The translations under genes and the position numbers were made by a program. Below the pieces are notes generated by a model. That model did not search any database. It was given only the letters and a program-made list of their open reading frames with translations, and was not told the origin of the DNA. Shown here piece after piece: positions 1-35,889 of a stretch of DNA of 38,866 nucleotides (the stretch's first letter is position 1; each line of letters opens with the position of its first letter). The stretch lies in the IMG/VR virus record IMGVR_UViG_3300010354_000218, positions 1 to 38,866 of that record. The stretch is one strand, 5' to 3'. The stretch is from a virus.

Positions 1-2641
1 AAGCTAATAAGGCTCTAGTCATAGTAGCCATGTGATTGAGTATTCTATATGCAGGAGCATGTGCTTTAGTCTTATCTCCTGAGTGATACACCATAAACTC
101 ATTCGCAGCACCCCAGAATCCTTGATTGTTAACCGCAGCATTAATGTATCTAGTAAAGCCTTCAATGTCTACTAAATTACCAATCATGGGACCATTAAAC
201 ACTTCTTTAGGTCCAGTAAACATTCCCCAGTGCCAAGGCATTGGCACTAGATTGAGTATCTTTTGTAGCTTCTGAGCTAAGTCCATATTACGTTCTAAGG
301 ACACATTAACAATCTTTAGTTGATACTTGTTGTGAAGCTGATCTGTAATTGCCTGCTTAACTTCCTGCGTAACTAGTGTGCCATTTACTTCAGCATTTCT
401 CTGTAGTCTAGCTAAAGCAGTCTCTAGATTAATAGTTTCACCATTAACAGTAATCTGCTCTCTCTGCCATATGTTTTCACTATGAGTGTTAACAGTTATC
501 TCTCCATCCATCTTAGTTATTACTATATCGGCAGGAGAAGCAAGTGCTTGTGTGTAATCATTAATAGCGCCTAACAACTGTTTATACTTACCATCCTTAC
601 TATCAATCTTATAAGGGCTTATCTTGTTAAGTAGGAACTCTCTTGTAGTAGCTTCAAAGAACGTAGCGCCCCTTATTCTTGCATAGTTCTCAAACCAGTA
701 AAGAGATAGAGTTGGATTATTAGCACTATAGAAGGCAGTAGCAGGCTGATCTCTTTTAAACTGCATTACTTCTGCTAAAAAGGGAGTATTGTATATGCTG
801 CCTCCAGATGCTACCTTTGCAAATACGTTCATCTTACTTGCATTAATAACAGATTCCTGTGCAGATAGAATACTCTGAGAGATCATAGCCTTAATAGGTT
901 CTCCTACTGCTAAGTAGGTAGCAACAGAAGATACAGAAGCAATAAGACCTGCTGCTGAGTTTTCTAGTAAGTCTTGAAAGAATGTCTGTTTAGTAGCAAA
1001 GTAGTTTTCTCCATCCTTCTTATAACTTTTAATAAGCGCTGGATTATTAACTAGATATGCTTGATCTATTAAGCCTCCAACAGCGCCAAATAAAGAAGGT
1101 ATAAATCCCTTCTCTTCTTTATACACTCTACCCATATTAATGGGTAAAAATACAAACTCATTAATTCTTGTAGATAGGCTAGGACTATTAACAGCCCTAT
1201 CATACATTCTCGCAGTTCTTAATTCATGCTCAGTTAGATCTCCCTTATCTGCTCTTAGAATAAGCTCAAAGGTATTCATATCTTCTACGTCTACAACACT
1301 GTTAAAACGTCCAGTATTTCTCATAGACGCATTGTATCTAGCCATTTCAAACGACTCAGAATAAGAGTTCTTGTTTGACAGCACAAAACCCTTTAAGCTT
1401 TTGTCTGTATCAAATAGGGGATAGAATAGTGGATTATGTATGCCTCTAGATCGCGCCTTATTTGCAGCATCACTTCTAAAGTTAGGACCAATATCATTTA
1501 TATCTATATTAAGAATCTTAGCCTTATTCTCTGGATTAGGAAGTAGACCCGCATCACTTAATAGCTTTCTCTCTTGCTCTTCACTGATAGTAGGTACAAA
1601 TCTCTGTACTCCGGTTAATCGTCTTAGCTGATCTAAGTCTGTTACTACATGTCTCTGCCAATTAGGATTAACGTTTTGCATGTTAGGCATAGCAACAGCT
1701 AACGCTTTAGCCTGCTGACTATTAACTGCTTCCTTTAAATCCATACCATTAGGAACAAAGATAGCAACCTTCCACAGTATCTTGGGTACCTCTACTCCTC
1801 CTTGTGATTCTATATAGCCCTTACTACCTACACCTCCAGTTCCAGAGCCTCCAGTAATAACGTACATAGAATTATTATTTAGAGGGCCTGCTCCATTAAT
1901 AATGCTAGGAGATACTTTATTGTTTAGATAGATTTCTAGACTTGCCCAGGGACCTTGATTGAGTGCAGGAGCTTCTGCGTACATATTAGACATTAAGTAC
2001 GTAAGACTGTTTAACGTCTTATTAGCAGTAAATGCTGCAGAGTTAGCAGCATGTCCCATATCAAATCCACTAGGAAAGGTGCTAGGAGATACAGGCTTAT
2101 GTACTTCATAGTCAGGTCTAAAATCATTCTCTCTTCTTACTGAACCTAGACTATTCTTATCAATCTTAAAGGCTACCCAGTTAGGTCTTCCCTTGTCTGA
2201 GTTGTAACTAACTACGTAGCCTCCTACATTCTCCTGCTTACGTACAAGTAATAAGTTGTTAGCATCCTCTCTAGTTGCGCCTGTAAGATTGCCTATTTGA
2301 GTTAATACGGGAGATAAACCCGTATTATCTAAACCATAATTCCTTGCTCCTGCAATAGGAGCAATACTCTGAGATGGAGGAGGCACCAACTCAATAGAGG
2401 GCATCTTATATCCATAACCAATTACTTCATTGTAGTTACGTAAATAGTTATTATATCTAGACTTAGGATCTCCACCCAGTACAAAATTACCAACTCTATC
2501 ATGTATAGAGTTGCCCTTGTACTGCCAATCCCATCCATCCTTTCTACGCCAACTAAGAGCATCATCTGCTAAATGCTTAGCTCCTAAAGCTGCTACGCCT
2601 ACAGTTAATACAGTAGTTCCTACACTAAGTAAATTGATCAT
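1..2641 (-). CDS. Large protein with DNA/RNA non-specific endonuclease domain (3' end outside window)
   Basis: This reading frame opens with ATG at 2641 and stays open for 880 codons to the window edge, so its C-terminus is not seen. Residues about 140-345 match the Endonuclease_NS (Serratia NucA) fold: an FRPDYEV strand, SGFDMGHAAN at 191-200 with the general base H197, and NQGPWASLE at 228-236. N228 and E236 would bind the metal. The spacings H197-N228-E236 (31 and 8) resemble H89-N119-E127 of Serratia nuclease. VPKILWKVAIF (285-295) and LTG (342-344) are further family landmarks. The usual DRGH is DMGH here. The N-terminus (2-20) and residues 562-580 are hydrophobic. The remaining C-terminal 500 residues or more are unrecognised. 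It follows the terminase and an unknown gene by short gaps and has no clear ribosome site. A role as an internal or ejected virion protein is inference. Confidence 0.85.
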   Translation of the reverse strand, partial: MINLLSVGTTVLTVGVAALGAKHLADDALSWRRKDGWDWQYKGNSIHDRVGNFVLGGDPKSRYNNYLRNYNEVIGYGYKMPSIELVPPPSQSIAPIAGARNYGLDNTGLSPVLTQIGNLTGATREDANNLLLVRKQENVGGYVVSYNSDKGRPNWVAFKIDKNSLGSVRRENDFRPDYEVHKPVSPSTFPSGFDMGHAANSAAFTANKTLNSLTYLMSNMYAEAPALNQGPWASLEIYLNNKVSPSIINGAGPLNNNSMYVITGGSGTGGVGSKGYIESQGGVEVPKILWKVAIFVPNGMDLKEAVNSQQAKALAVAMPNMQNVNPNWQRHVVTDLDQLRRLTGVQRFVPTISEEQERKLLSDAGLLPNPENKAKILNIDINDIGPNFRSDAANKARSRGIHNPLFYPLFDTDKSLKGFVLSNKNSYSESFEMARYNASMRNTGRFNSVVDVEDMNTFELILRADKGDLTEHELRTARMYDRAVNSPSLSTRINEFVFLPINMGRVYKEEKGFIPSLFGAVGGLIDQAYLVNNPALIKSYKKDGENYFATKQTFFQDLLENSAAGLIASVSSVATYLAVGEPIKAMISQSILSAQESVINASKMNVFAKVASGGSIYNTPFLAEVMQFKRDQPATAFYSANNPTLSLYWFENYARIRGATFFEATTREFLLNKISPYKIDSKDGKYKQLLGAINDYTQALASPADIVITKMDGEITVNTHSENIWQREQITVNGETINLETALARLQRNAEVNGTLVTQEVKQAITDQLHNKYQLKIVNVSLERNMDLAQKLQKILNLVPMPWHWGMFTGPKEVFNGPMIGNLVDIEGFTRYINAAVNNQGFWGAANEFMVYHSGDKTKAHAPAYRILNHMATMTRALLA

Positions 2642-2665: not shown

Positions 2666-3439
2666 TTACATGTAGGTAGGCACAGTACCTGGAGGATAAG
2701 CATATATGTTCTGTGGGAACACGTTGTTCTTAAACAGTATGTTTTTAATGTCTATTGGTCTTAGATACTCAATACTTATAGTTTCCCCAATAGCAGCACT
2801 AGTAGTAAGTAGAACGTCCGTAGTGTTCTTATAATTTACTGTACGTTGTAGCAATGAGGTATTAGCCGCAACTACAGAACTTAATGTAAATGTTGGCTCA
2901 TTATTAACAGATACTACATATACTAATTTGTTTATGTAGTCTTTAATCGACATAGGATTAGCAGTAAGAACTAAAGACAGCACTTCTGTTCTAAATTGAT
3001 TTGCGTATGCATAGCTGTAGTTAAGTAGATACTTACCTGAAGGATGTGGAACTAGCCAGTGCTCCGTTTTAAGTTTAGTTGGCGTATTGCCTATCTTCTT
3101 AGTCATCCTAGGTAACAAGTGGGGCCGCCACATCCAATACTCAACTTCATAACAGGAGCCCTCTCCCCATCCCACAGTAGGCTCTAATGCAAGTCTAACT
3201 TGATTTGCATATATACCTTCCCAGGGCACGTTATACCTATAGGGCATGGGTATGTATGAAGCATCATTTCTTATGTTACTGGGAGGTTTAATTATTAAGT
3301 AGTAACGAGGAGATAGAATTATAGTGTTAGTTATTAGATCTAGTTCATTGTCAGGAGTAGTAGGTATTGGTACGGGTACAGGTGGATCTGGTGTCTGTTC
3401 AATGAATGGCTCAAGAGTAAATAAAATAGGAGTCTTCAT
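2666..3439 (-). CDS. Hypothetical protein downstream of the terminase
   Basis: This 257-aa protein is not recognised. The frame also has a TTG two codons earlier (3445), but the ATG at 3439 is the likelier start; neither has a convincing Shine-Dalgarno sequence. A proline-rich stretch (TPDPPVPVPIPTTPDN, about residues 16-31) follows the N-terminus. The rest alternates hydrophobic and polar residues and looks beta-rich, with no signal peptide, membrane helix or coiled coil. The middle holds an aromatic-rich patch (EVEYWMWRPHLL). It lies 23 nt after the terminase stop and 24 nt before the nuclease-domain gene, so it is probably co-transcribed with both. Context suggests a head, neck or tail component, but nothing in the sequence assigns one. 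Confidence 0.75.
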   Translation of the reverse strand: MKTPILFTLEPFIEQTPDPPVPVPIPTTPDNELDLITNTIILSPRYYLIIKPPSNIRNDASYIPMPYRYNVPWEGIYANQVRLALEPTVGWGEGSCYEVEYWMWRPHLLPRMTKKIGNTPTKLKTEHWLVPHPSGKYLLNYSYAYANQFRTEVLSLVLTANPMSIKDYINKLVYVVSVNNEPTFTLSSVVAANTSLLQRTVNYKNTTDVLLTTSAAIGETISIEYLRPIDIKNILFKNNVFPQNIYAYPPGTVPTYM

Positions 3440-3462
3440 ACGCAATAGTAGTAAGTATCAAA

Positions 3463-6225
3463 CTATATTGTCCTGTATTTAGACTGTTGTTTGTAGGACT
3501 GTAATCTGTTAATTGAGGATCTATTATTAATAACTTTTCTATCAGTATTAATAGTTAACAGCTTAGGAGGATTTGCATTTCTAGTGTGAATTAAATTACA
3601 GCTACATCCATATCTATACGCCTCAAATACTGATACTGCTAATGCATCTGGTAAGTCCTTTGTTCCATATGGATGCACAATCTTGCCATTATCTTTAATT
3701 ACTAGAGAAGGCAAATCCGTCTTAATTAGAGCAGTCCAAGGACTATCTACGGGAAACAACACATCTCCCTGTTGTATTAATTGACGTAGTAGTGTGTAGT
3801 AAGTTAATTGACTGTCTCTAGAGAAGGACACTACATTCGTGTTAAGACCTTTAACATATAGATTCTGATTAAGAGATATAGAGTTCCAGCCATCAAACGT
3901 AATAGATACTACGTTCATGTATTGACTTATATACAGTATTACTTCTTCTGTATTTACGTAAGATACTTCTCTAAAACGGCCCTTTTCATCAATGCCTGGT
4001 GTCCAGCAAGCTATTCCTATTACCTCTATCTGACCCTTACTATTAATAGTAGCAATAGATAACGCCGTACTATCCTTCTTTGATCCCGTGTCTACATGTA
4101 TAAAGCAGGCCGTATTAACATTGTCAATTCTATCAATACTAATACCTCTGTAGCTTCTATTGTCTATGTCTATGCTGCACTCAGTAGCATCTATGCGGCT
4201 TTGAATAATACATAGCTTGTCTAGTAATGCTGCATCTAAGAACGAATTATCACTGCTGCTTCTTATATTCTCATACTCAAGTCTTGCTCTCTTAGGATTA
4301 CTGGCATAATCAGATACTATGTCTGGATTACTTCTAGTAATAGTAGGATTAACGTCAAAACAGCTTAATTCAAATACTAAAGAATAAGGATCTCCTTTTA
4401 CCTGTTCCTTTAAGGTAACCATAGGATCAGTAAATGACCAAGCAGAAGATACTACTATCTTCTTGCCTTCTCCCTTAAATCTATTAAGAGCACGACCTAC
4501 GTTCTCATAGATGTTAATGCCCGTATTAACTCCATCTGCTGTAGTCTCAAAACGCGCCATCTCATCTATAAATAACATCTTTAGGTTATAACCAACTAAT
4601 GCTTTAGAGTTAGTGTGCTTAGCAAATAGAGATACAAACTTATCAGGACACTTGATCTCATCACTAAGTACAATAATGCGCTTCTTCTTTATCATTGATT
4701 TAAAGAAGTCCGAGCTGTCTAAGAAGGATTTGATTGCTTTAAAGCTAGTCTCTAATACCTGTGCTTCTGTCTGAGCAATAGCAAATAAGGCAATGGGTGA
4801 ATAGGATAAAAGGCCGTAGTGCAGTCCTGGATCTGGTAAGGATATAAGCCTATAGAACTCATATAGAGAGATGATAGAAGAGAGCGTGCTTTTAGAGCTG
4901 TTATGACTAACTATGTAGTTACCTATAACGTGAGTGTCCTGCACCTCAAAGCCAATAATAGGCTGCAGTCCTAAGTCTTGTACATAACTGACTTCTTCCC
5001 AATCAATAGCACTGTCTACAATACTTAATAGCTGCGTATCATATGTGTTAGCTGCATACGCTCTAGCATTGCGCTTAGTAAGAGAACCGTTACTTCTTAG
5101 CCTATTCTTGCCTGACAGTTGTTTATTAGTCAGTTCAAGTACTGCTTGTCTCTGCTTTATTCTTTGCCATACAGGTTTAGGAATAGTATCTAGCTCTATA
5201 TGCTTTAGTCTATGTATTGCTTCATTCAATTTATCCTGCTTAGATAACATACCAATAGACGCAGCAAACTCTAGAATAGAATTTGCATCTTCAATAATTA
5301 GAGCCCACCTATTAGGTGTTCTTTTATTAGACGTATAGCGTACCTTAGATCTAATGCCAAACTTTACAAGTTCTTTTTGTATGTCTAGTACAAGTGTCTC
5401 ATGTAGAGATGTTATACCTATACTAGGTCTTAAGTATCTCTTATGAGACTTTTTCGTAGATACAAAACCATTACAAGAGAATAGACAGGATAAGAAGGCA
5501 GCTACTTCTTCTTTAGGCGCCTCCTTAATGCATGTAGGAATAGAACTAGCTATTGACTTAGCTAGCTGTTTAGCACGTTCAATACCAATAGACTTATTAC
5601 CAAATAGAGGTAAGTTGTTTAGTACTGCTACTCTATCTCCCTTAACCAAGTCTTTAACTGCTATCCATTCAGGCATAGCATTTCTCCATACAAGATATGG
5701 ATGATCACTTGTTACCTGCTCTTCTTTGCCATTCTTAAGCTTTAACTTGTGCGCAGACTGTAGTCCTTGATCCCACGTTCTAAAGTTACTAGTAGTAGAC
5801 AATACAAATGAAGCAGGATCAATAGTGTAGATACTAATAGCTTCTGTACTTCTATCATGTAGCTCCTTATAAGTAATAGTGCCCGCAGATGTTATTATCT
5901 CTGAAGTAGCAACAGGACAACCTCTTCCCGCTTCAAAGATTAAGTTGGTATACTTTCTGCCTTCTACCCAGTTAGTCTTATTCTGTTCCTTCCACAAGGC
6001 AAGTATAGCCTTATGCGTATCAGATAAGGGCTCATTGTATATTGCCTTTAATATTGCTTCTTGCGTAGGCCACAGCTTACTAGAAGGAGAGTCATTAAAG
6101 AGTATAGAATTAGCAAAGGTAACAACGTCTATATTGCTACCTTGAGGAGTACTAATTGATGCTTCAGTTAACTCTGCTAATAAGTCATTTAAGAACTCTT
6201 TTGTACCATACTGTTCTCTGCTCAT
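3463..6225 (-). CDS. terL: Terminase large subunit precursor containing an intein
   Basis: This is the ATP-driven DNA-packaging motor and headful/cos nuclease, 920 aa as translated and about 580 aa after intein removal. The N-extein ends EAGRG (98-102) and the C-extein begins SSKST (443-447), so splicing rebuilds a P-loop, GRGSSKST. Walker B is LFIDE (D554, E555), and a coupling motif VVSSAW follows (591-596). The C-terminal RNase H-like nuclease shows acidic residues D712 (HVDTGSKKDST), D778 (ITFDGW) and D860 (DLPDALAVS). The gene start overlaps the stop of its upstream neighbour by 4 nt (ATGA), which suggests translational coupling. Unusually, it sits at the distal end of the baseplate and tail genes instead of heading a packaging module, and no small terminase is recognised nearby. 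Without splicing the ATPase would be inactive, because the insertion splits the nucleotide-binding loop. Confidence 0.95.
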   Translation of the reverse strand: MSREQYGTKEFLNDLLAELTEASISTPQGSNIDVVTFANSILFNDSPSSKLWPTQEAILKAIYNEPLSDTHKAILALWKEQNKTNWVEGRKYTNLIFEAGRGCPVATSEIITSAGTITYKELHDRSTEAISIYTIDPASFVLSTTSNFRTWDQGLQSAHKLKLKNGKEEQVTSDHPYLVWRNAMPEWIAVKDLVKGDRVAVLNNLPLFGNKSIGIERAKQLAKSIASSIPTCIKEAPKEEVAAFLSCLFSCNGFVSTKKSHKRYLRPSIGITSLHETLVLDIQKELVKFGIRSKVRYTSNKRTPNRWALIIEDANSILEFAASIGMLSKQDKLNEAIHRLKHIELDTIPKPVWQRIKQRQAVLELTNKQLSGKNRLRSNGSLTKRNARAYAANTYDTQLLSIVDSAIDWEEVSYVQDLGLQPIIGFEVQDTHVIGNYIVSHNSSKSTLSSIISLYEFYRLISLPDPGLHYGLLSYSPIALFAIAQTEAQVLETSFKAIKSFLDSSDFFKSMIKKKRIIVLSDEIKCPDKFVSLFAKHTNSKALVGYNLKMLFIDEMARFETTADGVNTGINIYENVGRALNRFKGEGKKIVVSSAWSFTDPMVTLKEQVKGDPYSLVFELSCFDVNPTITRSNPDIVSDYASNPKRARLEYENIRSSSDNSFLDAALLDKLCIIQSRIDATECSIDIDNRSYRGISIDRIDNVNTACFIHVDTGSKKDSTALSIATINSKGQIEVIGIACWTPGIDEKGRFREVSYVNTEEVILYISQYMNVVSITFDGWNSISLNQNLYVKGLNTNVVSFSRDSQLTYYTLLRQLIQQGDVLFPVDSPWTALIKTDLPSLVIKDNGKIVHPYGTKDLPDALAVSVFEAYRYGCSCNLIHTRNANPPKLLTINTDRKVINNRSSINRLQSYKQQSKYRTI
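4900..5919 (-). mobile_element. Intein in terminase P-loop with degenerate LAGLIDADG endonuclease
   Basis: This in-frame insertion covers residues 103-442 of the terminase precursor (340 aa). The splicing motifs are present: Cys103 as first residue in block A (CPVATSEIITSAG), block B VTSDHPYLV with T172 and H175, block F FEVQDTHVIGNYIV, block G SHN with H441 and N442, and Ser443 as the +1 extein nucleophile. Splicing is therefore expected to be functional. Between blocks B and F are remnants of a LAGLIDADG (DOD) homing endonuclease. FLSCLFSCNGFV (244-255) corresponds to a block E of the type FLxGLFDADGxV, with the catalytic Asp replaced by N252. ILEFAASIGMLSKQDKL (317-333) resembles block H. 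No counterpart of the first LAGLIDADG motif is visible. The endonuclease is probably inactive, leaving a vertically inherited splicing element. Confidence 0.93.
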
Positions 6226-6923
6226 ACTCTTATATACATCTCTAACTGATCAACAATAGTGTCTATATTTCTACCAGTTAACTTAGCAGTCTCTACTAAA
6301 GAGTAGTTAGTCGGACATATTAACAGGTAATAAGTATTAACAGATTTAGTTCTAGTATTGCTAGAGGTAATAGCAATAGGAGTATCTTCTAACTGTAAAT
6401 ACAGATAGCCCGCATTAGATGGAGATAAAGTCTGTGTCTGTTTAGGTGCAATTATATATAGATCTGCATTAGTAGCTAAGCTGTTATAGCTGTAATACAG
6501 AGAAGAGTCTGTAGTGTTCTCTATAGTAATGTAGTTATTCTTAGTAGTTGTTACGGGCTTAGTCGTCTCTACATAATCATCTACAAATGCGTTCTTAGAT
6601 ATGAACAACATAAACAGCTCTGTAGCTGTCTTTAGATATGCTATAAGCGGCCCTCTTCTTATAACCTCTTTAGAACATACAAAGGGTGTCTTATTCTTCT
6701 CTACTTGTAGCGTGTTACCTCCCAAATCAAATAGTTTGTAGGGGCCAATAACGTCAGTTATATCTGGAGTAGTTGGATTAATGTAGTATGTGTTGAATGG
6801 ATGTACTGCAAATCTATAGCGGTCCCATGTTCTTAGATTGTTCCAGCTAGCATCATAGTTCTGCATAATACTGTTAACAAGATCGTATTGAGTACGATCT
6901 TCCTTTATTATTTGCCTAGCCAT
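6222..6923 (-). CDS. Hypothetical protein upstream of terminase
   Basis: This 233-aa protein has no recognised family. It begins with a charged helical-looking segment containing several Trp and Tyr residues (SWNNLRTWDRYRF), followed by alternating strands and a Thr/Asn-rich central stretch (about 120-170). No membrane segment or signal peptide is visible. A purine-rich AAGGATAGGT precedes the ATG. The start overlaps the upstream 155-aa gene by 8 nt, and the TGA stop overlaps the terminase start by 4 nt, so the three are probably translated together. It could be a head-tail connector, tail terminator or small virion protein. Its position alone does not make it a small terminase, since no helix-turn-helix DNA-binding segment is evident. 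Confidence 0.8.
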   Translation of the reverse strand: MARQIIKEDRTQYDLVNSIMQNYDASWNNLRTWDRYRFAVHPFNTYYINPTTPDITDVIGPYKLFDLGGNTLQVEKNKTPFVCSKEVIRRGPLIAYLKTATELFMLFISKNAFVDDYVETTKPVTTTKNNYITIENTTDSSLYYSYNSLATNADLYIIAPKQTQTLSPSNAGYLYLQLEDTPIAITSSNTRTKSVNTYYLLICPTNYSLVETAKLTGRNIDTIVDQLEMYIRV

Positions 6924-7383
6924 TGCTACCTATCCTTATATTAAATGTGTACGTTAGCTTAGCAGGAGGAGTTATAGTAACAGGCGCGTTTGCTATGGGC
7001 TTTACAAGTAGAGGCACGCCCTGTACATTACCTCTATTGTTGTAGTTAAGCTGATTAGCTCCAACTAACAATGCGTTATATACATAGCAGATATGTGTCG
7101 CATTAGTTATAGCACATGTAAATTCAATAGGTACAGTAGCCACTACATAAGTCTGACCACCAACTACTTCTTCTGTAGTGTTAACAGTAGGAATAACGTA
7201 TCTACTGTAAGTTCCTTGAAGCTCGTACTTAACTACGTCTAACATTGTTATACTGTCTAATGCGGCCAACTGTGTCTCATTAGGAGAAGTACCACCATAA
7301 ATAGGAGCGTTAATAAGTACTGCTACTGCATCTGTAGTAATAGTACTAAGTATGTCTTGTCTACCAACTTTGCTGTATCTCAT
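6916..7383 (-). CDS. Hypothetical small structural-type protein
   Basis: This 155-aa protein is unrecognised. It is rich in Val, Thr, Asn and Tyr, with alternating patterns that suggest a beta-sandwich (for example GGQTYVVATVPIEFTCAI near residues 75-92). It contains no charged coiled coil, signal peptide or membrane helix. The ATG shares one base with the TAA stop of the preceding gene (TAATG), a typical stop-start coupling arrangement, and its own end overlaps the next start by 8 nt. It belongs to a run of three small unknown genes between the tail proteins and the terminase. In contractile phages such positions often hold neck or baseplate-peripheral proteins; that is context only. Confidence 0.75.
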   Translation of the reverse strand: MRYSKVGRQDILSTITTDAVAVLINAPIYGGTSPNETQLAALDSITMLDVVKYELQGTYSRYVIPTVNTTEEVVGGQTYVVATVPIEFTCAITNATHICYVYNALLVGANQLNYNNRGNVQGVPLLVKPIANAPVTITPPAKLTYTFNIRIGSNG

Positions 7384-7799
7384 TAGCCTAGATTTAATGT
7401 AATAGTGTCTGTAGGAATATGTATGCCTATATATGGCTCTGACATGTCTAGTTGTATCAACAAAGTATTTGACTTTGTGGGCATCTTAAAAACGGCAGTA
7501 GGAGCATATATAGATTGAAAGATGATGTCCGTATTAAACTGTCTGTAGATAAACAGTCTTTGTCCAGTAATAGTATAGGATACTCCTATGTAGACACCTT
7601 CAAAGTTAGGATCTTCATAGGTATAACCCTTATAGCAGTTGTCTTGCTGTATTGGTAATTCTTCTGGATATAAGAAATCCAGATTAGGAGGCCTATTAGA
7701 TAACCATACCTCCTCTTCTTCTACTAAGTAACTAAACTGCTTAAAGTCACTAGATACTTGATTTAGATAATTACCGTAAGTAATGTTTGTAAGGTACAT
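7383..7799 (-). CDS. Hypothetical small protein
   Basis: This 138-aa protein is not recognised. The N-terminal half is acidic and aromatic (NQVSSDFKQFSYLVEEEEVW, about 13-32), and the C-terminal half looks like beta strands (GVYIGVSYTITGQRLFIY). No cysteine pairs, membrane segments or repeats are evident. It starts 12 nt after the stop of the upstream 382-aa gene with an A-rich leader and no Shine-Dalgarno sequence. Its stop overlaps the next start by one base. The tight packing and matching base composition make it a real member of the late operon, but a function cannot be read from the sequence. Confidence 0.75.
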   Translation of the reverse strand: MYLTNITYGNYLNQVSSDFKQFSYLVEEEEVWLSNRPPNLDFLYPEELPIQQDNCYKGYTYEDPNFEGVYIGVSYTITGQRLFIYRQFNTDIIFQSIYAPTAVFKMPTKSNTLLIQLDMSEPYIGIHIPTDTITLNLG

Positions 7800-7811
7800 A
7801 AAACGTTATTG

Positions 7812-8960
7812 TTATTTATTAATACTTTTTAAATAGCTTTCTATAGCAGTAAGACCTTTTCCACTGATTCTCGCAAGCCAAAACTGAGACCAGTCTTTCT
7901 TACATTCTGCTTTTACCTTTTCACTTTGTCCTTTTATACTAATAACAGCCGCACTAGAATCTCTTCTATAAAAACCAACTAAGACCTTAACATAGAAATC
8001 TATAGCAGCAGATACGGTGCTATCTACATTTGCCACATTAGTACTAACCTTTTCTCTAAAAGAAGCTTCTTTAGAGATTTTATATAAGCTATAAAGTGGA
8101 ATATCAGAGTCTGTAATAACTCTGGTTATTTGATCTTGTCCTCTTGTATTATTAAATAAAACAACTAACTTATTTAAATCTTCATTATCTATACAAGAGT
8201 TTAAGTCGGTTGATTTAGGTTCTTCTTTTGGTTTAATAGATGTAGTAGATTCAGTTTTAGAGTCTACGCAAGCTAGATTAATAGTCTGTAGGACTTCAAA
8301 CTTCATTAGATAGTAGTTCCTATCCTGTCTTACATAGAGCGCCTCAAACTCTTTTACATAGCCTTTAAACGCAATATTGGATTGATTATCTCTAAATAAG
8401 TAGCTCTTGCTTGTGCTGGGATTCTTTGCTTCTGTAAAGATAGTTACCTGTACTGGTACTTTCTGAGTTACGGCAAACTCAAAGAACTCACTAGCAGCAG
8501 CATAGCTGTCCTGCACTCCAGGAATATTAAGTTGACCATAAATATCTTGAGAGCTTATTTCTCCATTTCTCCACTCTTCCCAGTTGCCCGCAGAAGATAC
8601 TTCTCTTAGTCCGTCATAGCCAGTAAACATGCCACTCATAGTAACAGTAATACTGTCTATACCTAAATGTTGATAGATGGGAAAGAAGCCAGGTATTCTT
8701 AGCTTGGATATAGTAGTAGCAGACTTTATTTGAAGACCAGGCATCTGCATGGGATTTGCTTTACCTGGATGCTTTGTATCTGCGTTGGGGGGTAATACCA
8801 TGTAAAAGCTTTTGTTGTTAGCAGTCATCCTTACTCGGTAATTAGGAGGCTTAACTACATTAGAGCTTAATGCTTGCACTACTGAAGTACCTGCCTGCAC
8901 TGCTGAAGTACCTGCCTGCGTATAAGGAGATATTTGAATAGGGCGGTTATTATTTGACAT
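7812..8960 (-). CDS. Putative tail-tube-like or baseplate-tube protein
   Basis: This 382-aa protein begins with a low-complexity Gln/Ala/Thr region carrying a short tandem duplication (QAGTSAV then QAGTSVV), followed by a soluble domain. Residues about 40-230 show long beta strands, LRIPGFFPIYQHLGIDSITVTMSGMFTG-type segments and an FEFAVTQKVPVQVTIF strand near 165-180, a pattern resembling the tube fold of contractile injection systems. The C-terminal 140 residues are mainly helical and Lys/Ser-rich, without a recognised family. The start overlaps the preceding 788-aa gene by 11 nt and lacks a Shine-Dalgarno sequence. A tube initiator or baseplate-tube adaptor is plausible but unproven. The main tail tube candidate lies far upstream, next to the sheath. 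Confidence 0.6.
   Translation of the reverse strand: MSNNNRPIQISPYTQAGTSAVQAGTSVVQALSSNVVKPPNYRVRMTANNKSFYMVLPPNADTKHPGKANPMQMPGLQIKSATTISKLRIPGFFPIYQHLGIDSITVTMSGMFTGYDGLREVSSAGNWEEWRNGEISSQDIYGQLNIPGVQDSYAAASEFFEFAVTQKVPVQVTIFTEAKNPSTSKSYLFRDNQSNIAFKGYVKEFEALYVRQDRNYYLMKFEVLQTINLACVDSKTESTTSIKPKEEPKSTDLNSCIDNEDLNKLVVLFNNTRGQDQITRVITDSDIPLYSLYKISKEASFREKVSTNVANVDSTVSAAIDFYVKVLVGFYRRDSSAAVISIKGQSEKVKAECKKDWSQFWLARISGKGLTAIESYLKSINK
8875..8916 (-). repeat. Two-copy 21-bp tandem repeat in coding sequence
   Basis: Copies at 8875-8895 and 8896-8916 (TGCACTACTGAAGTACCTGCC on the plus strand) differ at a single base. Each encodes seven residues, so the reading frame is kept and a Gln-Ala-Gly-Thr-Ser-rich stretch is doubled near the N-terminus of the 382-aa protein. 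The near identity suggests a recent slippage duplication. Confidence 0.9.
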
Positions 8961-11316
8961 ATACTTTATATGCTTTTACTAAAGGTCTATTGTCTGATTC
9001 TGTTCTAAGATCTATGCGCACGGTTAGATAGTTCCTAGTTGCTTGTGTGTTAGTGCCCTGTTGAGTTACTACCTTTACTAGTTTATTGAGTGGCACTTCA
9101 AATACGTATTTGTACGTCTGATCATTACCGTCTACTAAATAGCGATAGTTAGAATTCAGCTTCTCCCATGTGTATGTCTGATTAGAGGATATATATAGAT
9201 CCACGTATGTAGAATCTAGAATAATTGCATCTAGTTCTGCATACACAGTGGAATAAGCAAAGTTAGTTCTAATTGTCTTAGATACGTAAATGGCTTTATC
9301 CTGCTTAGATGATATTAAACAGGGTCTTATATACGCATACTTATTAACATCAATAGTTATAGGTAGACTATTTGTACTATTAGTAGACGCCTCATTAATA
9401 TACTCAATGTTATTTATCTTGAAGCTATCGGGATAGTACAGATGATCAAACTTAGATAGCGCGTCATTAATTGTTAATACTGCTTTGCCTGTACTGTTTA
9501 CATAGTTTGCAGAGTACAGAGTATACATGAGATCCTTATTTAGATACTGTGTAGTTGTTGTCTGTGCTGCGTCTTGTGTAAATAGATAACCGTTAGTAAC
9601 TAGAGACTGATTAGATATAAACAGGTCAATAGGAGAATTAGGAGTACAGATAAGAAGACAGTAGACTCCCTTAGATAGAGTAATCGGTACGTCAAATACA
9701 CATCTAGTAGGCAGCGTAGCATCTACGCTTGCTCTAATGTTATTTAGCTCTACAATAGCCTGCCCTATTACTTCTTGTGGCTTATCTGTATACCGCGCCA
9801 CTAACACCTTTATAAGTGGATTATTTGTAGTGACTCTTCTAATGTATATATCCAGCTCTACTAGAGTAGTAGGTGCAGTTACTTCAAACGTTTGACCTAT
9901 GTAAGTATTATCTACTCCATAACTGTTATCTAATAGAGAAGAAGTAGCAGAAGACTTAGCATTCTGTACAGTTATTACGTCATTTATACTGCTACGCGCA
10001 GGTAAAGAAAAGGAAAAGGCAGCATATCCAGATGCATTAGTGCTAATAGAGGTACTGATTAAAGTGCTGCCAATAGTCAAGCTAAACTCAGAGCTGTTTG
10101 GAGTTAGTCCATAGACTTCTGCATTTACTATTAACTGTGTTAATAGAGTAGTTACCTCTTTAGTGCTTTTGTATATAGATGTATTTAGTTTGGGATATTG
10201 AAGCTTCAGTATTCCTCTGCTACTTATATTAGTAGTAATAAAGGAATCACTCAACTTTTGTTGTATATATGGAGTAGCAGTATAGTTTTGTATAAGTATA
10301 GAAGGCTGTCCATTAACTAGTTTTACATTAGTGTTGTTATTGCTAATAGCAACGCTGTTAGTTAATCTAGTTAGCTTACCAATACTGAGAGATCCATTAA
10401 ATATCTCACAGTCATACAGAACATGATACGTGTCTGCTTTATCTTCATTATTAAACGTATCAGCTAACAAGTTAGATGTAGTGTCTATACTGGTAAGAAT
10501 GGTGCTTTCTAATAAGTAGTCTCTTAGTCCTGCAAGTCCAGTCTCTATAGTACGTATCTGTTTAGATGTTATCTGATATGCATACTTGTTAGGCTGCCAC
10601 TTGCCATCAAGATAATAACCTAATAGTACAGAGCTATTGCTGTCCAGTTTAATTAGAGGATTTAATGTCTGTATACCCAATCTATTAACAACTAGAACAT
10701 AGTTAGATAATGTAGTAGTTACTGGAGAATGATAGGGATAGGAGTACCTAGTGCCATTAATATAGACTACTCCTGGACTAACACAGTTGTCGTTATAAGT
10801 AAGTCCCCAGCTAACAAAGTTACCATATATCTCAAAGAGCTGTTGTTGTATGTAGTCTTCAGAGCGAGACTTTGTAAGGGGACTAAGTATACCTGCATCT
10901 ACTCTTAGTATAGGAATAGCGGTATTACTGGCAGTAGTAGTAATAGTGTAGTCAAGAGCAATAGACGTAGAATCTACGGTGAACAGGAGATCTAGGTATA
11001 AAGTAAATGAAGCGCTATTTATACTTATAACTTCTTGCTGCGTCTCTACAACAAGAGGATAGTTATTAAGTAGTATTCTACCTGGAGATAAAGTAATACT
11101 GCTAGGTGTAATGCGTAATAGACGTAATCCACTAAGCACTTCCACGTCATTAAAGGCTGTTTTAGCATATTGGTATATAGGATTAATAAGAATGTCCTGT
11201 ATATCTTCAAACTCTTTAGCTTGAGGAGGGCGCTCTCTACTGGCTACAGGTAATAGCTTGAGATAAGAAGACATGTATCTTGCGCTTTTATAGTTAGATA
11301 AAGATTGGATTGACAT
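8950..11316 (-). CDS. DUF4815-type tail/baseplate protein, second paralogue
   Basis: This 788-aa virion-type protein resembles the 1342-aa gene just upstream. An N-terminal motif RERPPQAKEFEDIQDI (27-42) matches the position and pattern of RPIQTRELLELQDI in the larger protein, which is the lQARELxxLQ signature of DUF4815 tail proteins. A YGNFVSWGL segment matches EGNFVVKGF. A later module beginning IGQTFEVTAPTTLVELDIYI resembles IEQTFIATQTCFLNNIKLFI in the neighbour. The central coiled coil of the larger protein is absent. The sequence is otherwise long, beta-rich and Thr/Ser/Asn-rich, as in fibre-attachment or baseplate proteins. The gene overlaps its upstream paralogue by 23 nt, consistent with tandem duplication and divergence. 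The DUF4815 label is inferred from motifs. Confidence 0.7.
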   Translation of the reverse strand: MSIQSLSNYKSARYMSSYLKLLPVASRERPPQAKEFEDIQDILINPIYQYAKTAFNDVEVLSGLRLLRITPSSITLSPGRILLNNYPLVVETQQEVISINSASFTLYLDLLFTVDSTSIALDYTITTTASNTAIPILRVDAGILSPLTKSRSEDYIQQQLFEIYGNFVSWGLTYNDNCVSPGVVYINGTRYSYPYHSPVTTTLSNYVLVVNRLGIQTLNPLIKLDSNSSVLLGYYLDGKWQPNKYAYQITSKQIRTIETGLAGLRDYLLESTILTSIDTTSNLLADTFNNEDKADTYHVLYDCEIFNGSLSIGKLTRLTNSVAISNNNTNVKLVNGQPSILIQNYTATPYIQQKLSDSFITTNISSRGILKLQYPKLNTSIYKSTKEVTTLLTQLIVNAEVYGLTPNSSEFSLTIGSTLISTSISTNASGYAAFSFSLPARSSINDVITVQNAKSSATSSLLDNSYGVDNTYIGQTFEVTAPTTLVELDIYIRRVTTNNPLIKVLVARYTDKPQEVIGQAIVELNNIRASVDATLPTRCVFDVPITLSKGVYCLLICTPNSPIDLFISNQSLVTNGYLFTQDAAQTTTTQYLNKDLMYTLYSANYVNSTGKAVLTINDALSKFDHLYYPDSFKINNIEYINEASTNSTNSLPITIDVNKYAYIRPCLISSKQDKAIYVSKTIRTNFAYSTVYAELDAIILDSTYVDLYISSNQTYTWEKLNSNYRYLVDGNDQTYKYVFEVPLNKLVKVVTQQGTNTQATRNYLTVRIDLRTESDNRPLVKAYKVYVK

Positions 11317-14300
11317 ATACGTATTTAATAGTTACTGGTTTACTAGTGTCATTAGTTACGGTATCTACTCTGTACTTAGACCCAGTAGCATTAGTAGAAT
11401 AGGTAATAGTAAATACGCTTTCATATAATCCTATATTCTCATCTACTAGAACACTAGATACTTCTCTGCAGATGGACCATACTTCATTGGAGGATTGAGG
11501 CGCATGATAGACAAGTACTTGAGAGTCAGCAGGCTTTATATATCCCACCTTAATATTTACACTGGTGTAATTGTTGCCATGAGAGAAATAATTAGATACA
11601 ACAGTACTACTGCTGTTATTAGCATAGATACTTAGAGTGCTTCCTTTAATAAGTAGTAGAGGACTTACAGCTAAATCATCAGTATATAAAGTAGCTCTAA
11701 TACTTATCTGATTAGACTTAAAGTCTAGTGCAGTGTACTTATTACTGCTAAAAGATTTCCACACTCCATCTTCTAAGGCGTATTCATAGTTGATGTAAGT
11801 TAAAGGAGGAATAACGTCTCTAGTATTTAGAGCAAAGCCAGTAGCTAAGTTAAGTCTGTATGTACCCAACAGTATCTGCTTAGACTGCTGTGTAAATGCG
11901 TCTCTAGTAACTACATAAGATAAATCGTAATTGTCTAGTTGTACCGCATTACTTCCATCTAATGAGTAGTACAGGCATCCATTGCTTTCTAGTTGATTAC
12001 CAAAGTAAGTTCCCGTATTTAAATCTGGCGCATTAATCTTAGCTACAGCAAAGGAGAAGCCATCTTGTGGGGACTTAAGCACTATTCTGTAGAGTTTGTC
12101 TTTCTCTATTAGACAGGGCGTAAGAAATTGAGCAGTTAATGTGGTTCCTACAAATGTAGTTAATTCTGCGTAGCTAATTACATTTCTATCTTCATCTAAT
12201 AGCAGTACAGTTAGCTCTGTAGCTACTGTAGGCGCCTTATTAATAAACAGCTTTATATTGTTTAAGAAGCAGGTCTGTGTAGCTATAAATGTCTGCTCAA
12301 TGTTATATGTATACGCATCTTCTGTTAAGTATGGTGGAGTATCAGCTCCAAGTACCTGCGCATTAGTAGCGTCAAATACTACATGATTAAGAAGATTATT
12401 AAATACGCTAAACTTAGTACGTACTAAATACGCTACGTTACGCACTTCTACTGTATGTACTCCTGTATTTAGATTAGGCGGCATTAACATTCTTACGGAT
12501 GCTTTACCATTAGAACCTGCTCTAAAACTGTTGTAAATATTACCTACTGCCGTAGAACCTAGCATTACTAAAGATGTCTGCAGAGGAGCGCCATCTATAT
12601 AAACCTTATAGTTATTACTTAGAGGCTCTAAGTCAGTTAGGAATAGATCAATAGACAGGGTACTTAATGTCTTTACATTAGCAGATATATAATTCTCTAT
12701 CTCCTCATCCAGAGAATTACTATTGAATGCATTATTGGTGTAGAAAGCTTCTTCTAATGCAGTACCTAACAAGCCATACAAACTTTGATTGTATATAGCA
12801 ATACGAGAATTAATCTTACTCTGTACTTCCGCAATACTGTTTGATGGATTTATCTTTGCGCTGTTGACGTTAAAGAATAAAGAGTAACTACTAAGTCTAA
12901 GAATAGGCTTATAGGTCTGCTTAGTTAATGTTCTATACTCTGTTATACGAGACTGATTTAAATAGGACACACCTAACACTTGATGTGGCAGGCTTATATA
13001 ACTGTCAGTATAGTATCTACTAGCTTCATTAGTAGAAAGAGGAACTTCAGAGTAAGAGTAGCCAACTGTAAGCGCCTGCTTATTTGGACATATAGCCGCA
13101 GTATATGCAGGATTATATATGTCTTGATTAGTGTAAGTTAAGAAGCTGTCTGTAATTAACTCTGGCTTATCTTCTAATGCGTATACTGCTTGAGTTAACT
13201 GTTCTCTTAGCTGATGTAACTGCTTGTTGGTGTACTTATTTAAGCCAATAGATTTAAAGGATGAATCATTTACTCTTAACGTAAATTCGCAGATAGGTAA
13301 TAAGTAGTCAGGCACACTAGGTACAGCAGGATTAATGCCAGGCTCTGACATTACATAGTCTATATTGCCGTCTCTATCTAATGTTAATAGACCCGCCTTT
13401 GTTTGATAATAGCTGTAGTCTACGTAGAAGCTTTGTCCAATTGCAGGAGTTCTATTTATAAAGTAAATAGCGTCGTTCTGCAGCTTATAGTCTACGTTAT
13501 TAGTTAGGATAGAGGTGTAGAGATACGTTACAAAGTAGGTAGTGCCTGGTGCTGGTTCTTTAGTGGATGGCAAAGACCAGTCAATCTGACTTTGATTAAT
13601 AAGTCTAAAGTCAACGTCCTGCAGATAAGTAGTAAAGTCTTTTCCTACTGCAACTATCTTAGTTACTGTTGCTTGACCTAAGTTATCAATAGTGCCGGGT
13701 ACCGCACCTCTTACTACTGGCTTACTAGTTGCAATTAATGTAGCACTAAGTCTATTAATCTCTGATACTGGAGTAAATCCTAACTTATAACTATTTAGAC
13801 TAGAAGAAGAAGTGCTAGTAAGAGCCTTAGTAATAGTTACACCCTCTCCTGCTCCTACAATAGTATTGTTAGCATCTCTTTTTAATAGATTGAGAGTTAT
13901 ATCAGGAACAGTAGAAGTATTGCGTAGCGTTATAAATTTAAAGGTAATAGTAGAGTTATTAGTTAGAATGACCTCATAGTTCTGTTTAATGGCAAGCATT
14001 AAATCATTGTTATTTAGAGACAGCGTACTACACGTAATAGTTGTTGTAGTAATTGCACTATTAAACTCATTTACTATAAAGACAACAATGTCTGCAATAG
14101 ACGTAATAGTACTGGGCAGATTTATATCTATCTGCATTGTATGCTCTACGCCATTAAAGACGACATTATTCATTACTACTCTAATAAGACTCTTATTAGT
14201 CAATAAAGTAGTAAGCAGTAAATTACTAAACTGATAGGAGGTGTATGAAGCAGTCCCAGAGTAATTAAATACCGCATTATATATTTGACTAGTAGGTAGG

Positions 14301-15322: not shown

Positions 15323-15326
15323 GTTG

Positions 15327-15860
15327 TTAGATAGATATTAACTGCTTAATAAGATGACGTTGATTGTCTTCTCTTACAATACGCGTGTGATTGATAGAGC
15401 TATACACATATCCTAGTTTTAGCATCTGTTCTGGTTTAAATAGTATGTTGTTATTAGGCGCTTCTGCTCCTAATACTATAGATGTAGTTCTAAAGTAGGC
15501 GCTTGTATAGTCCGTGTATCTAATGTCTCCTTCAATATATATGTGTGTTACGTCTGCATTAAGTACGTCTTCTTCATTGCTAGGATCTACGAGGTAATAG
15601 TTATTGCCATTTATTCTCTTATTATCACACGCAATACCTCCACAGTTAGTAACAGTAGCCAGCATAATAAGGCGGGGCCTCTTATACAGTATGATCTCAT
15701 CAGTAGCAGTAAAGTCTGTTACTGGCGGAGGCAGTGTTTCATTAGCCCAGGCACTATACTTGCCTACAGTAATAAAACACTTAGTCTTTAAGTAGAGCGC
15801 AATATCTCTTAGAAATATAGAGCGGCCTTTAGATAGTCTGTTAAAGTTAAATACTTGCAT
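15327..15860 (-). CDS. Putative baseplate wedge-like protein
   Basis: This 177-aa protein contains FITVGKYSAWANETLPPP (29-46), like the F-x-GK-x-xxW-xxxxxPP opening that recurs in T4-like baseplate (gp8-like) proteins. It is followed by strands and YIEGDIRYTDYTS near 107-119, resembling the wedge-protein pattern in which a loading site ends with a Tyr-rich stretch. No signal peptide or membrane helix is present. A good Shine-Dalgarno sequence (AAGGAG, 8 nt before ATG) lies inside the end of the upstream oxidoreductase gene, with a 14-nt overlap. The downstream gene is the large DUF4815-type protein. Baseplate membership is likely from context; the specific gp8-like label is tentative. Confidence 0.5.
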   Translation of the reverse strand: MQVFNFNRLSKGRSIFLRDIALYLKTKCFITVGKYSAWANETLPPPVTDFTATDEIILYKRPRLIMLATVTNCGGIACDNKRINGNNYYLVDPSNEEDVLNADVTHIYIEGDIRYTDYTSAYFRTTSIVLGAEAPNNNILFKPEQMLKLGYVYSSINHTRIVREDNQRHLIKQLISI

Positions 15861-33141: not shown

Positions 33142-35889
33142 CTAAGCTAAGGTGACTGTACCACTAACATCTCTTGTCAAAGTGATCTCAATTCTATCAA
33201 TAGGATATAAAGGAGTATATGACAAATTGATGTTTAGATTGCCGTTGTAGTAGTCAGTAGTAGAGTTATTACTCTCATCAATTACAGGTTGACTATAGCT
33301 CACAATGTAGCCACTTCTTGCCATAGAACTCATATAAGCAGATATAGAAGAAGCAATCATATTTCTTACCTTTCTACTATTATTTTCTCCTTTGTATGCC
33401 TGCAGATTAAAGTACAGATCCTTTCTAATAGTGTCATTAACTCTAACAATATTGATTCTATCCTTTCCAGCAGTATTAGTAAGCGTTCTGCCCTGTACTA
33501 CGTAGTAACCAGAAAGCGCAGTATCTAAACTAATCATATCTACTTTTGCATCAATAAATTGCTGCTTAGTAGCTAATGATTTGTATTGATCCATGTCCGT
33601 AGAAATAATTCCCTGTATAGAGCCCGCAGAAGTTCTTGCATGAGGACTTATATTCTCCGGTAAAGAGGCTAGTTTACCTGCATAGAATGCAGACAGTGGA
33701 ACGCCAAATCTATTATTAATATCTCCACCATAAGTAGCCCAACCTGCAACATACACAGCTCTTTCAGTGTTAATAGCTGCCGTTTCTATTCTAGCTAAAG
33801 CAGGAGTTAGATTTCTCTTAGAAGTTAGAATAGCAATCTTTCTACCTTCTAACTCTTTACTGTTATTTGCTACTGTAATTTGTGCCTGTTTAATAGCATC
33901 AGATGCACCCGCTAATTCACTAGCTACTACAATAAAGTTAACTAGCTGTTCTGACAAAGAGTTAATAGTTTTAATGTAGTCCCTTTCTACGGGAACAGGA
34001 CCGTCATAGCCCTTTATTAAAAAGATGTTCTTTAGTCTAGCATTACCTACATAGTTAATATGTCTAATATCATTTATATCAGTAATGTAGACGTTAGCTG
34101 GTGCTAGTCTTTGTGGAGTTCTATTTAATAGAGTAAGCGCATTTGGCTGATTTAATGTCACAGGCAAATAGTCTGCCTTTAGATAAGTAGAAGTAATAGA
34201 ATTAATATTACCACTGCCATCTACGTCAGTTAATAGGTCTACATCAAACGACTCAATCTGTGTATCTAACGTATTAGTATTCTTATCTTCAATTACTACG
34301 TTAAAGCGACTAGCTCCCGTACTATTAACTGTTAATGCAATGTTGTTTCCCCATTGTCCTGGACTAATAGCAGTAAATCTAACAAGAGGCTGACCATCAG
34401 AGCTGTATAAAGTTCTAAACGCATTTCTCGCACTATTAGTTGTGCTAGAGAAGCCTGTCTTATTAGTTACGCCGTAATTACTAAAGCTAATACCATTTAT
34501 ATTAGAGAAGGTAATTGATTGATTAGTAATAGCGCTAGTAGTTGCTTGACTAAGAGTAAGTACGTTGCCTGATTTACTCTGTACAACTGCGCCTTGAGGA
34601 ATACTAGCATGACTGACAATACTGTTAATAGATATATTACTTGCATCTGCTACTGTAAGAGTAGTGCTGTTATTAGCCGCAGTTCCTGTAGTTACTACTT
34701 GTCCATCTGGTGTCTCTAGATCTATCCAGAAGCTATAACCACTTGCAATAGTAATTCTATCTGGATCATTTAGATCAAAGAACTCAATAGGCTGATTAAA
34801 GATGCTTTCTGCTAGAAATAGTCCGGCTCCCTGTTCATTAGTTAATCGTGTTACTTGACCAATAGGATTAACTCCACTGACTAGATCCTGTATATTATTA
34901 ATAACGTCAGAGGGAGTAGCAGATTCTGCAATAGGGACATTGTATTGTGTAGAAGATACTCTAACAGTAAATTGATCTCCGGGATACAACTCAATAGGTA
35001 CACCAGTAGTACTAAATTTAAGAGATACGCCTTCTGCAGTTATCTTGTAAATACCCGCATCAGTAGTTAAGTCTAGTGCAGTAGATAATAAGCCGCCAGT
35101 AACAGTAGTATTAGTAGTATCTACATAACTAGGCACATCAGTCTGAGTAGTGCCCCAATTAATACTTGGAAGAACATTTCTATTTGGGTACTGATCAACA
35201 CCAAGAGTAACCCACTTAAGAATTGCCTTATTAGACGTAGTAAAGACGTTGTATCCCGCTGCACCTGTTAATAGAGATGCAGATAGAGTAACCACTCCAG
35301 TAGTAGTATTAACGTTAGTTACCGTAGTGTTTGCAGGCAGAACTCCAGCAGTATTACTAATAATAGTAGAGCCAACAACAATCTTCTTTGCGTCTGCCGG
35401 ATTAAAAGTAATAGTAGTGGCAGAACTAGACTGATTATATACGGCTAGAGCAGACACAGGACCATGTGTTACGTTATAAACATAGCGCTTGTCTGCAGTA
35501 CCTGTATAACTACCAGTAGATGCAATAGGCGTTTCAATATAGGTAGAGCTAATTGGCTGCCCAATAAACTTTAAATTAAGAGTAAGTATATTGCTCTTAG
35601 TAGCAGTACCACCAATAAGTAGATTTACCTTAGCAGGCTCACTAGAACCAATTACTCTAGTAACGCCAAATTCTCTAGCCCCCTGATCATACGCAGCTTG
35701 AAAGGCTAGGTTTGCAATACCATTGTCATATCCATAAATTCTAGCAAAGTCTTTAAAATCTGACAGTAGTACCGTATTAATAGGACCTCTGGTAAACTCA
35801 CCAACAATTGCAATTCTATTAGATGCTGTTAGATTAATAGGAGCACCTAATGCTGGTTGTTCATTAAAAATTACGTCAGGTATTCTCAT
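33142..35889 (-). CDS. Tail sheath protein with inserted exterior modules
   Basis: This 915-aa contractile sheath protein has the N-terminal signature PDVIFNEQ...NRIAIVGEFTRGPINTVLLS (through residue 43) and IYGYDNGIANLAFQAAYDQG (51-70). A conserved ISPGQWGNNIALTV (508-521) marks the sheath core. A C-terminal region from about 700 to 895 has the expected sheath order: FGVPLSAFYAGKLA, SAGSIQGI, YYVVQGRTL, INIVRVND and RSGYIVSYSQP. The protein is about 250 residues longer than T4 gp18 because of insertions. Residues about 158-217 and 408-461 are two similar beta modules with the pattern 'GSTI...P.NTTVT...GVVTLS' and 'NSIV...PQGAVV...NVLTLS'. They would lie on the outer surface. It starts 13 nt after the upstream gene, without a Shine-Dalgarno sequence. 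Confidence 0.92.
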   Translation of the reverse strand: MRIPDVIFNEQPALGAPINLTASNRIAIVGEFTRGPINTVLLSDFKDFARIYGYDNGIANLAFQAAYDQGAREFGVTRVIGSSEPAKVNLLIGGTATKSNILTLNLKFIGQPISSTYIETPIASTGSYTGTADKRYVYNVTHGPVSALAVYNQSSSATTITFNPADAKKIVVGSTIISNTAGVLPANTTVTNVNTTTGVVTLSASLLTGAAGYNVFTTSNKAILKWVTLGVDQYPNRNVLPSINWGTTQTDVPSYVDTTNTTVTGGLLSTALDLTTDAGIYKITAEGVSLKFSTTGVPIELYPGDQFTVRVSSTQYNVPIAESATPSDVINNIQDLVSGVNPIGQVTRLTNEQGAGLFLAESIFNQPIEFFDLNDPDRITIASGYSFWIDLETPDGQVVTTGTAANNSTTLTVADASNISINSIVSHASIPQGAVVQSKSGNVLTLSQATTSAITNQSITFSNINGISFSNYGVTNKTGFSSTTNSARNAFRTLYSSDGQPLVRFTAISPGQWGNNIALTVNSTGASRFNVVIEDKNTNTLDTQIESFDVDLLTDVDGSGNINSITSTYLKADYLPVTLNQPNALTLLNRTPQRLAPANVYITDINDIRHINYVGNARLKNIFLIKGYDGPVPVERDYIKTINSLSEQLVNFIVVASELAGASDAIKQAQITVANNSKELEGRKIAILTSKRNLTPALARIETAAINTERAVYVAGWATYGGDINNRFGVPLSAFYAGKLASLPENISPHARTSAGSIQGIISTDMDQYKSLATKQQFIDAKVDMISLDTALSGYYVVQGRTLTNTAGKDRINIVRVNDTIRKDLYFNLQAYKGENNSRKVRNMIASSISAYMSSMARSGYIVSYSQPVIDESNNSTTDYYNGNLNINLSYTPLYPIDRIEITLTRDVSGTVTLA

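Follow-up and report, generated by a model that had tools for sequence, protein, structure and literature searches.

By analogy of function, the system that comes closest to the one described here is Tme, a tape-measure-related endonuclease effector of the contractile injection system of Streptomyces davawensis, for which endonuclease activity has been demonstrated experimentally (PMC11126660). An SNase domain has also been noted in the baseplate hub of the phage-like element BtI1, where its purpose was called not obvious (PMC2147016), and beyond these two cases we found no paper that describes a nuclease module in a phage protein of the tape-measure or ejected kind. Here we describe a giant gene, left open by the end of the contig, in the IMG/VR virus record IMGVR_UViG_3300010354_000218, whose 38,866 bp make up the entire contig and are referred to below as the window. 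The product carries a NucA-type nuclease domain near its N-terminus, and what is new here, judging from the sequences compared, is that unrelated nuclease folds have been swapped at one N-terminal slot of a phage giant.

Results

The 5' part of the giant gene encodes 880 residues (Table 1). The Pfam profile PF01223 (Endonuclease_NS) matches residues 137-345 with E = 5.6e-24 and 85.5 bits against a cut-off of 23, which bears out the original prediction, made from the sequence alone, of such a domain at residues 140-345. The best solved relative is the nuclease NucA of Anabaena (PDB 1zm8 and 2o3b), with E = 3.8e-25 over residues 114-353. About 240 residues are aligned; however, NucA is a stand-alone protein of ∼250 amino acids with a DRGH motif, whereas the window domain is part of a giant and reads DMGH. 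The original prediction had noted a complete active site with DMGH in place of DRGH. H197, the predicted general base, and N219 are retained; each lines up with its counterpart in NucA and is unchanged in L026 and L005, two relatives with a complete gene. The motif itself varies among the three members: L026 has DRGH, L005 keeps the Arg in QRGH, and the window reads DMGH.

L026 and L005 are 51% and 46% identical to the window protein over the whole of its 880 residues, and because both align from residue 1, the ATG start call is right. Their giants are 3428 and 3513 amino acids long, so the earlier figure of at least 880 residues is too low. The remainder of the 880 residues matches Ma-LMM01 gp120 (2898 amino acids; PHROG 29513, annotated as hypothetical) and WOL31340 of My-WqHQDG (4151 amino acids). 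These two share a homologous body and the same gene order with the window giant and differ from it in the module, which is PLD in WOL31340, without a recognized family in gp120, and Endonuclease_NS in the window. The protein, alignments of the core, and the terminase served as queries to collect further giants from IMG/VR; an exact-peptide search with the entire window protein gave no match, and the relatives came from the alignment and terminase queries. The gp120 type makes up the majority of the IMG/VR matches, yet counts as one lineage. The complete relatives span 2796-5484 amino acids, are among the longest genes, and have 3-17 hydrophobic segments by a simple hydropathy threshold. The longest, at L096:506-16960 (+), combines its PLD module with a GDSL hydrolase, repeats rich in proline, and two HExxH motifs, one of which weakly matches eCIS_core. 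Bacterial and archaeal genomes searched with core block 2 yielded no relatives.

In 12 of 13 lineages, a Pfam nuclease domain scores above cut-off at the slot ahead of the core, and these domains belong to three unrelated superfamilies: Endonuclease_NS (window, L005, and L026), SNase (L007, L021, L035, and L092), and PLD in the form of PLDc_2 (My-WqHQDG, L093, L094, L095, and L096). The clearest case is the pair L007 and My-WqHQDG, whose giants are 71% identical over 2963 amino acids and 82% identical in the first ∼22 residues; between this tip and the body, L007 has an SNase domain and My-WqHQDG a PLD domain. The core and terminase trees require at least four fold changes. Two SNase/PLD sister pairs are recovered in the core tree with supports of 100/100 and 98/97, and the Endonuclease_NS members form one clade on the trees. 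All four SNase members keep the catalytic set of Asp, Arg, Asp, and Glu plus a later Arg, and a pair of HxK motifs is present in several of the PLD members. Across the 12 related contigs, the Endonuclease_NS and SNase families are confined to these giants, bar one stand-alone SNase, and no module-free giant was seen among the relatives if the gp120 type, which lacks a recognized domain, is set aside. At the level of sequence, the exchange of folds suggests that these phages deliver a nuclease together with the genome.

The giants are also depleted in cysteine. The 13 proteins contain two cysteines in 44,164 amino acids, as compared to rates of 0.83% for the remaining genes of the window and 0.61% for Ma-LMM01 gp091-118; at the late-gene rate of Ma-LMM01, ∼18 cysteines would be expected in gp120. 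Cysteine is likewise absent from N4 gp50 (3500 amino acids), gp51, and gp52, from T7 gp15 and gp16, and from lambda gpH, while T7 gp14 has one, portals and lambda TerL have 2-9, and the range extends to 11 once lambda J is included. Cysteine depletion supports the assignment to the ejected class and does not define that class; the sign is not exclusive to it.

The original prediction had also pointed to hydrophobic stretches at residues 2-20 and 562-580. Their Kyte-Doolittle scores are 1.71 and 1.46, and a segment scoring at least 1.6 is present in 1113 of 2000 shuffles of the 880-residue sequence. Within the part encoded in the window, the stretches lie in the shuffle range and we rejected them as evidence of membrane insertion.

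Table 1. Features of the giant gene and its operon in the window
Feature	Position	Strand	Basis or remark
Giant gene, 5' part, 880 codons, ATG start	2..2641	-	Open at contig end; all 880 residues aligned by L026 and L005
Endonuclease_NS (NucA-type) domain, residues 137-345	1607..2233	-	Pfam PF01223 and PDB 1zm8/2o3b
DMGH, residues 194-197 (D194-M195-G196-H197)	2051..2062	-	Equivalent of DRGH, with Arg replaced by Met
N219, predicted metal-binding Asn of 'NM'	1985..1987	-	Aligned to the NucA Asn; invariant in window, L026, and L005
N-terminal hydrophobic segment, residues 1-20, weak	2582..2641	-	Not above shuffled expectation
Conserved giant block, residues 480-600 (INE...GRVYKEEKGFIPS)	842..1204	-	Common to the Endonuclease_NS, SNase, and PLD lineages, except remote L095
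259-aa gene adjoining giant	2666..3445	-	Homologues across lineages regardless of nuclease type
Large terminase with LAGLIDADG intein	3463..6225	-	Synteny anchor
Tail sheath gene	33142..35889	-	Marks a contractile-tailed phage; syntenic with Ma-LMM01 gp091-gp120

Almost all large open reading frames of the window share the minus strand and make up a morphogenesis operon for a contractile tail, with sheath, baseplate wedge, cell-wall hydrolase, and terminase genes, in an order that matches Ma-LMM01 gp089-gp120. The contig is from a contractile-tailed phage, with Microcystis phage Ma-LMM01 and Microcoleus phage My-WqHQDG among its relatives. The placement of the giant downstream of the terminase stands: the terminase is followed by a 259-residue gene, whose product may serve the giant as a chaperone or partner, and then by the giant itself. 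The same order, with a gene of ∼260 residues in the middle, is found in most relatives. In the remote L095, the giant directly follows the terminase and lacks the core motif; this phage is GC-rich and 205 kb long, its terminase is only distantly related, and its giant at 5708-17623 (-) has 3972 amino acids and a PLD module. Oversized terminases also occur in L026 (728 amino acids), L021 (1672 amino acids), and L094 (1020 amino acids), and are probably due to inteins. In the Endonuclease_NS lineage, a PD-(D/E)XK nuclease gene lies directly 3' of the giant (L005:19219-20304 and L026:18927-19982), and its equivalent in the window would fall beyond the contig. A separate large protein at L098:43811-48832 (-), Ma-LMM01 gp064, has 1673 amino acids, 24 cysteines, a HELVHH motif, and the sequence NEGDADGDQ, which resembles the catalytic motif of two-barrel RNA polymerases.

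A second giant family is represented by Ma-LMM01 gp080 (3562 amino acids, one cysteine). Homologues of 3674-5372 amino acids with no cysteine are present in 7 of the 12 related contigs, with one further partial copy; gp080-like giants are located at L109-L115 and at L099:7700-18388 (-). The family has PLD-like HxK...GSxN motifs near the N-terminus, and because only one member clears the Pfam cut-off, the assignment of a PLD module to it is tentative. The two giant families also bear on the identity of the tape measure. The 1041- and 814-residue proteins of the window were considered and are unlike a tape measure by eye and by hydropathy, and of the large Ma-LMM01 genes, only gp080 besides gp120 resembles one. 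The tail of MaMV-DH01 is 260 nm long; at ∼0.15 nm per helical residue, such a tail needs ∼1,700 amino acids. Since no other large Ma-LMM01 gene fits, one of the two giants (gp120 or gp080 type) is by elimination the likeliest tape measure.

Discussion

On balance, we lean toward the view that the giant is a tail-ejected (tape-measure or pilot-type) virion protein that brings an interchangeable nuclease into the host. The open reading frame would then be the start of a virion protein of ∼3,400-3,500 amino acids, a length judged from the relatives, which would exit the particle via the contractile tail, either together with the genome or in front of it. The N-terminal module would be a sugar-non-specific nuclease, here of the NucA-type beta-beta-alpha-metal fold with H197 as the base and N219 at the metal, and would be delivered to the entry site, where it may cut host or competing nucleic acid while incoming phage DNA is perhaps spared by separation inside the channel. 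If the slot demands nuclease activity and not a given fold, SNase or PLD nucleases could thus have replaced the module in evolution. The original prediction of an internal or ejected virion protein therefore remains the best reading; it gains from the length of the giant, its position in the morphogenesis operon, its cysteine depletion, and the repeated exchange of folds, from which we infer its presence in the virion, its ejection, catalysis, and the target.

Several results weigh against this proposal. The complete DRGH, which is the usual motif and is not demanded by the profile, is absent from the window, where Met replaces Arg. The slot of gp120 has no recognized nuclease family and only an HxK motif; gp120 residues 1-440 were also compared as a candidate PLD by HHalign with the PLD set, and were rejected at a probability under 1%. 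Proteins free of cysteine are also found among virion proteins that are not ejected, such as the window sheath and the N4 major capsid protein. Neither the window protein nor the full-length relatives that were scanned match a tape-measure, ejection, or other known virion family in Pfam or PHROGs, and a literature search found no virion proteomics of these phages. AlphaFold models are poor, with a mean predicted local distance difference test score of 45 for the window protein (10 rows); the structure prediction proposed earlier for the C-terminal part was run on the C-terminal 1192 residues of L035 (9 rows) and gave a mean of 38. Late expression, which was part of the earlier claim, is not established, because in the Ma-LMM01 transcriptome the terminase belongs to the middle class and only five genes are late (PMC5780444). 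In the same infection, almost no host gene changed expression (PMC5780444), so wholesale destruction of host DNA fits poorly, at least for Ma-LMM01, whose module has no assigned family; the possible targets include RNA, plasmids, and the DNA of competitors.

The same drift of the active site, from DMGH in the window and QRGH in L005 to no recognized domain in Ma-LMM01, would suit a module that is kept as a nucleic-acid-binding or plug domain, e.g., one that grips the genome by its leading end inside the tail, and that can do without catalysis. However, the catalytic residues are complete in L026, in every SNase member, and in several PLD members, and because the three different enzymes are all nucleases, catalysis explains the slot better than binding does; we consider a binding role unlikely. 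The gene could also encode a polymorphic-toxin-like effector that is aimed at competing bacteria or at sibling cells and paired with its own immunity protein, given that one constant carrier holds exchangeable toxin-type nucleases, a pattern also seen in MuF toxins (PMC5576092). Yet no nuclease-specific immunity gene was found among the neighboring genes of the giant in the compared lineages. The ∼260-residue neighbor is homologous in all lineages tested, whatever the nuclease, and a second neighbor is 82% identical between the sisters L007 (SNase) and My-WqHQDG (PLD). The original suggestion of a toxin with a separate immunity gene is weakened because the neighboring genes stay the same whichever nuclease is present. 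In addition, the module is N-terminal, the variable slot always holds a nuclease where it has been assigned, and characterized relatives such as MaMV-DH01 are lytic, all of which make a toxin distinctly unlikely.

A nuclease that works in assembly, by packaging DNA or clearing capsids, on a protein that stays undelivered would suit a gene just after the terminase, and the middle transcript class of the Ma-LMM01 terminase agrees with this. A non-specific nuclease in the cytoplasm would nevertheless endanger phage DNA, a cysteine-free carrier of 3,000-5,000 amino acids would be unneeded, and the conserved terminase is expected to carry a nuclease domain of its own, so we regard an assembly role as quite improbable. 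It is highly improbable that the domains are selfish, homing-endonuclease-like insertions that landed here by chance. Phage terminase and tape-measure genes often have homing endonucleases close by (PMC10448857), and the window terminase has its LAGLIDADG intein, but none of Endonuclease_NS, SNase, and PLD is a homing family, the modules form the N-terminal part of the giants in frame, and no giant free of a module was found.

Beyond this locus, it is possible, with chances we put slightly short of even, that large contractile-tailed phages, several cyanophages among them, carry an exchangeable nuclease at the N-terminus of a tail-ejected giant, in a polymorphic-toxin-like substitution of unrelated folds that serves infection itself; the second giant, which is also poor in cysteine and starts with a PLD-like module, is present in 7 of the 12 related contigs and in Ma-LMM01. 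If the ejected-nuclease proposal is true, phages use an interchangeable nuclease that arrives with the genome, and it becomes testable how incoming phage DNA escapes and what is cut, with host DNA, plasmids, rival phages, and RNA as candidates. It would give a likely function to Microcystis phage giants now annotated as hypothetical and would link phage tails to contractile injection systems that carry nucleases, with the swap between sister giants serving as a natural experiment.

Comparison with known systems

Polyvalent proteins have several enzymatic domains on one injected protein, a trait that among the giants only L096 has (GDSL, HExxH, and PLD), and the text of the paper that describes them (Iyer 2017) does not contain SNase, phospholipase D, or NucA. 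The BtI1 hub, in which an SNase domain sits on a virion protein of the tail, resembles the giants as proposed here and differs in being a hub protein and a single case, without a series of folds at one slot. The N4 virion RNA polymerase gp50, T7 gp16, and lambda gpH share the absence of cysteine, and N4 gp50 is comparably giant with an enzyme domain (PMC12633501); however, no sequence similarity to them was found, and their enzyme is an RNA polymerase or wall hydrolase and not a nuclease. The MuF polymorphic toxins of temperate phages (PMC5576092) are, like the giants, virion-type proteins of the packaging module with exchangeable toxin domains. In MuF proteins, the toxin is C-terminal and followed by an immunity gene, whereas the window module is N-terminal, on a far longer carrier, and has no nuclease-specific neighbor; Pfam detected the MuF domain (PF04233/PF06152) neither in the window protein nor in relatives of full length. 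Like the nuclease proposed for the window giant, that of Tme is tied to a contractile tail-like particle. Its nuclease is C-terminal, in contrast to the N-terminal module of the window, and it has tape-measure homology and a DUF4157 domain, neither of which was detected in the 880 residues of the window; the full relatives L005 and L026 have no second nuclease or DUF4157, and the window lacks the C-terminal part. Tme serves the bacterium, whereas the window giant is borne by a phage and its nuclease fold varies among relatives.
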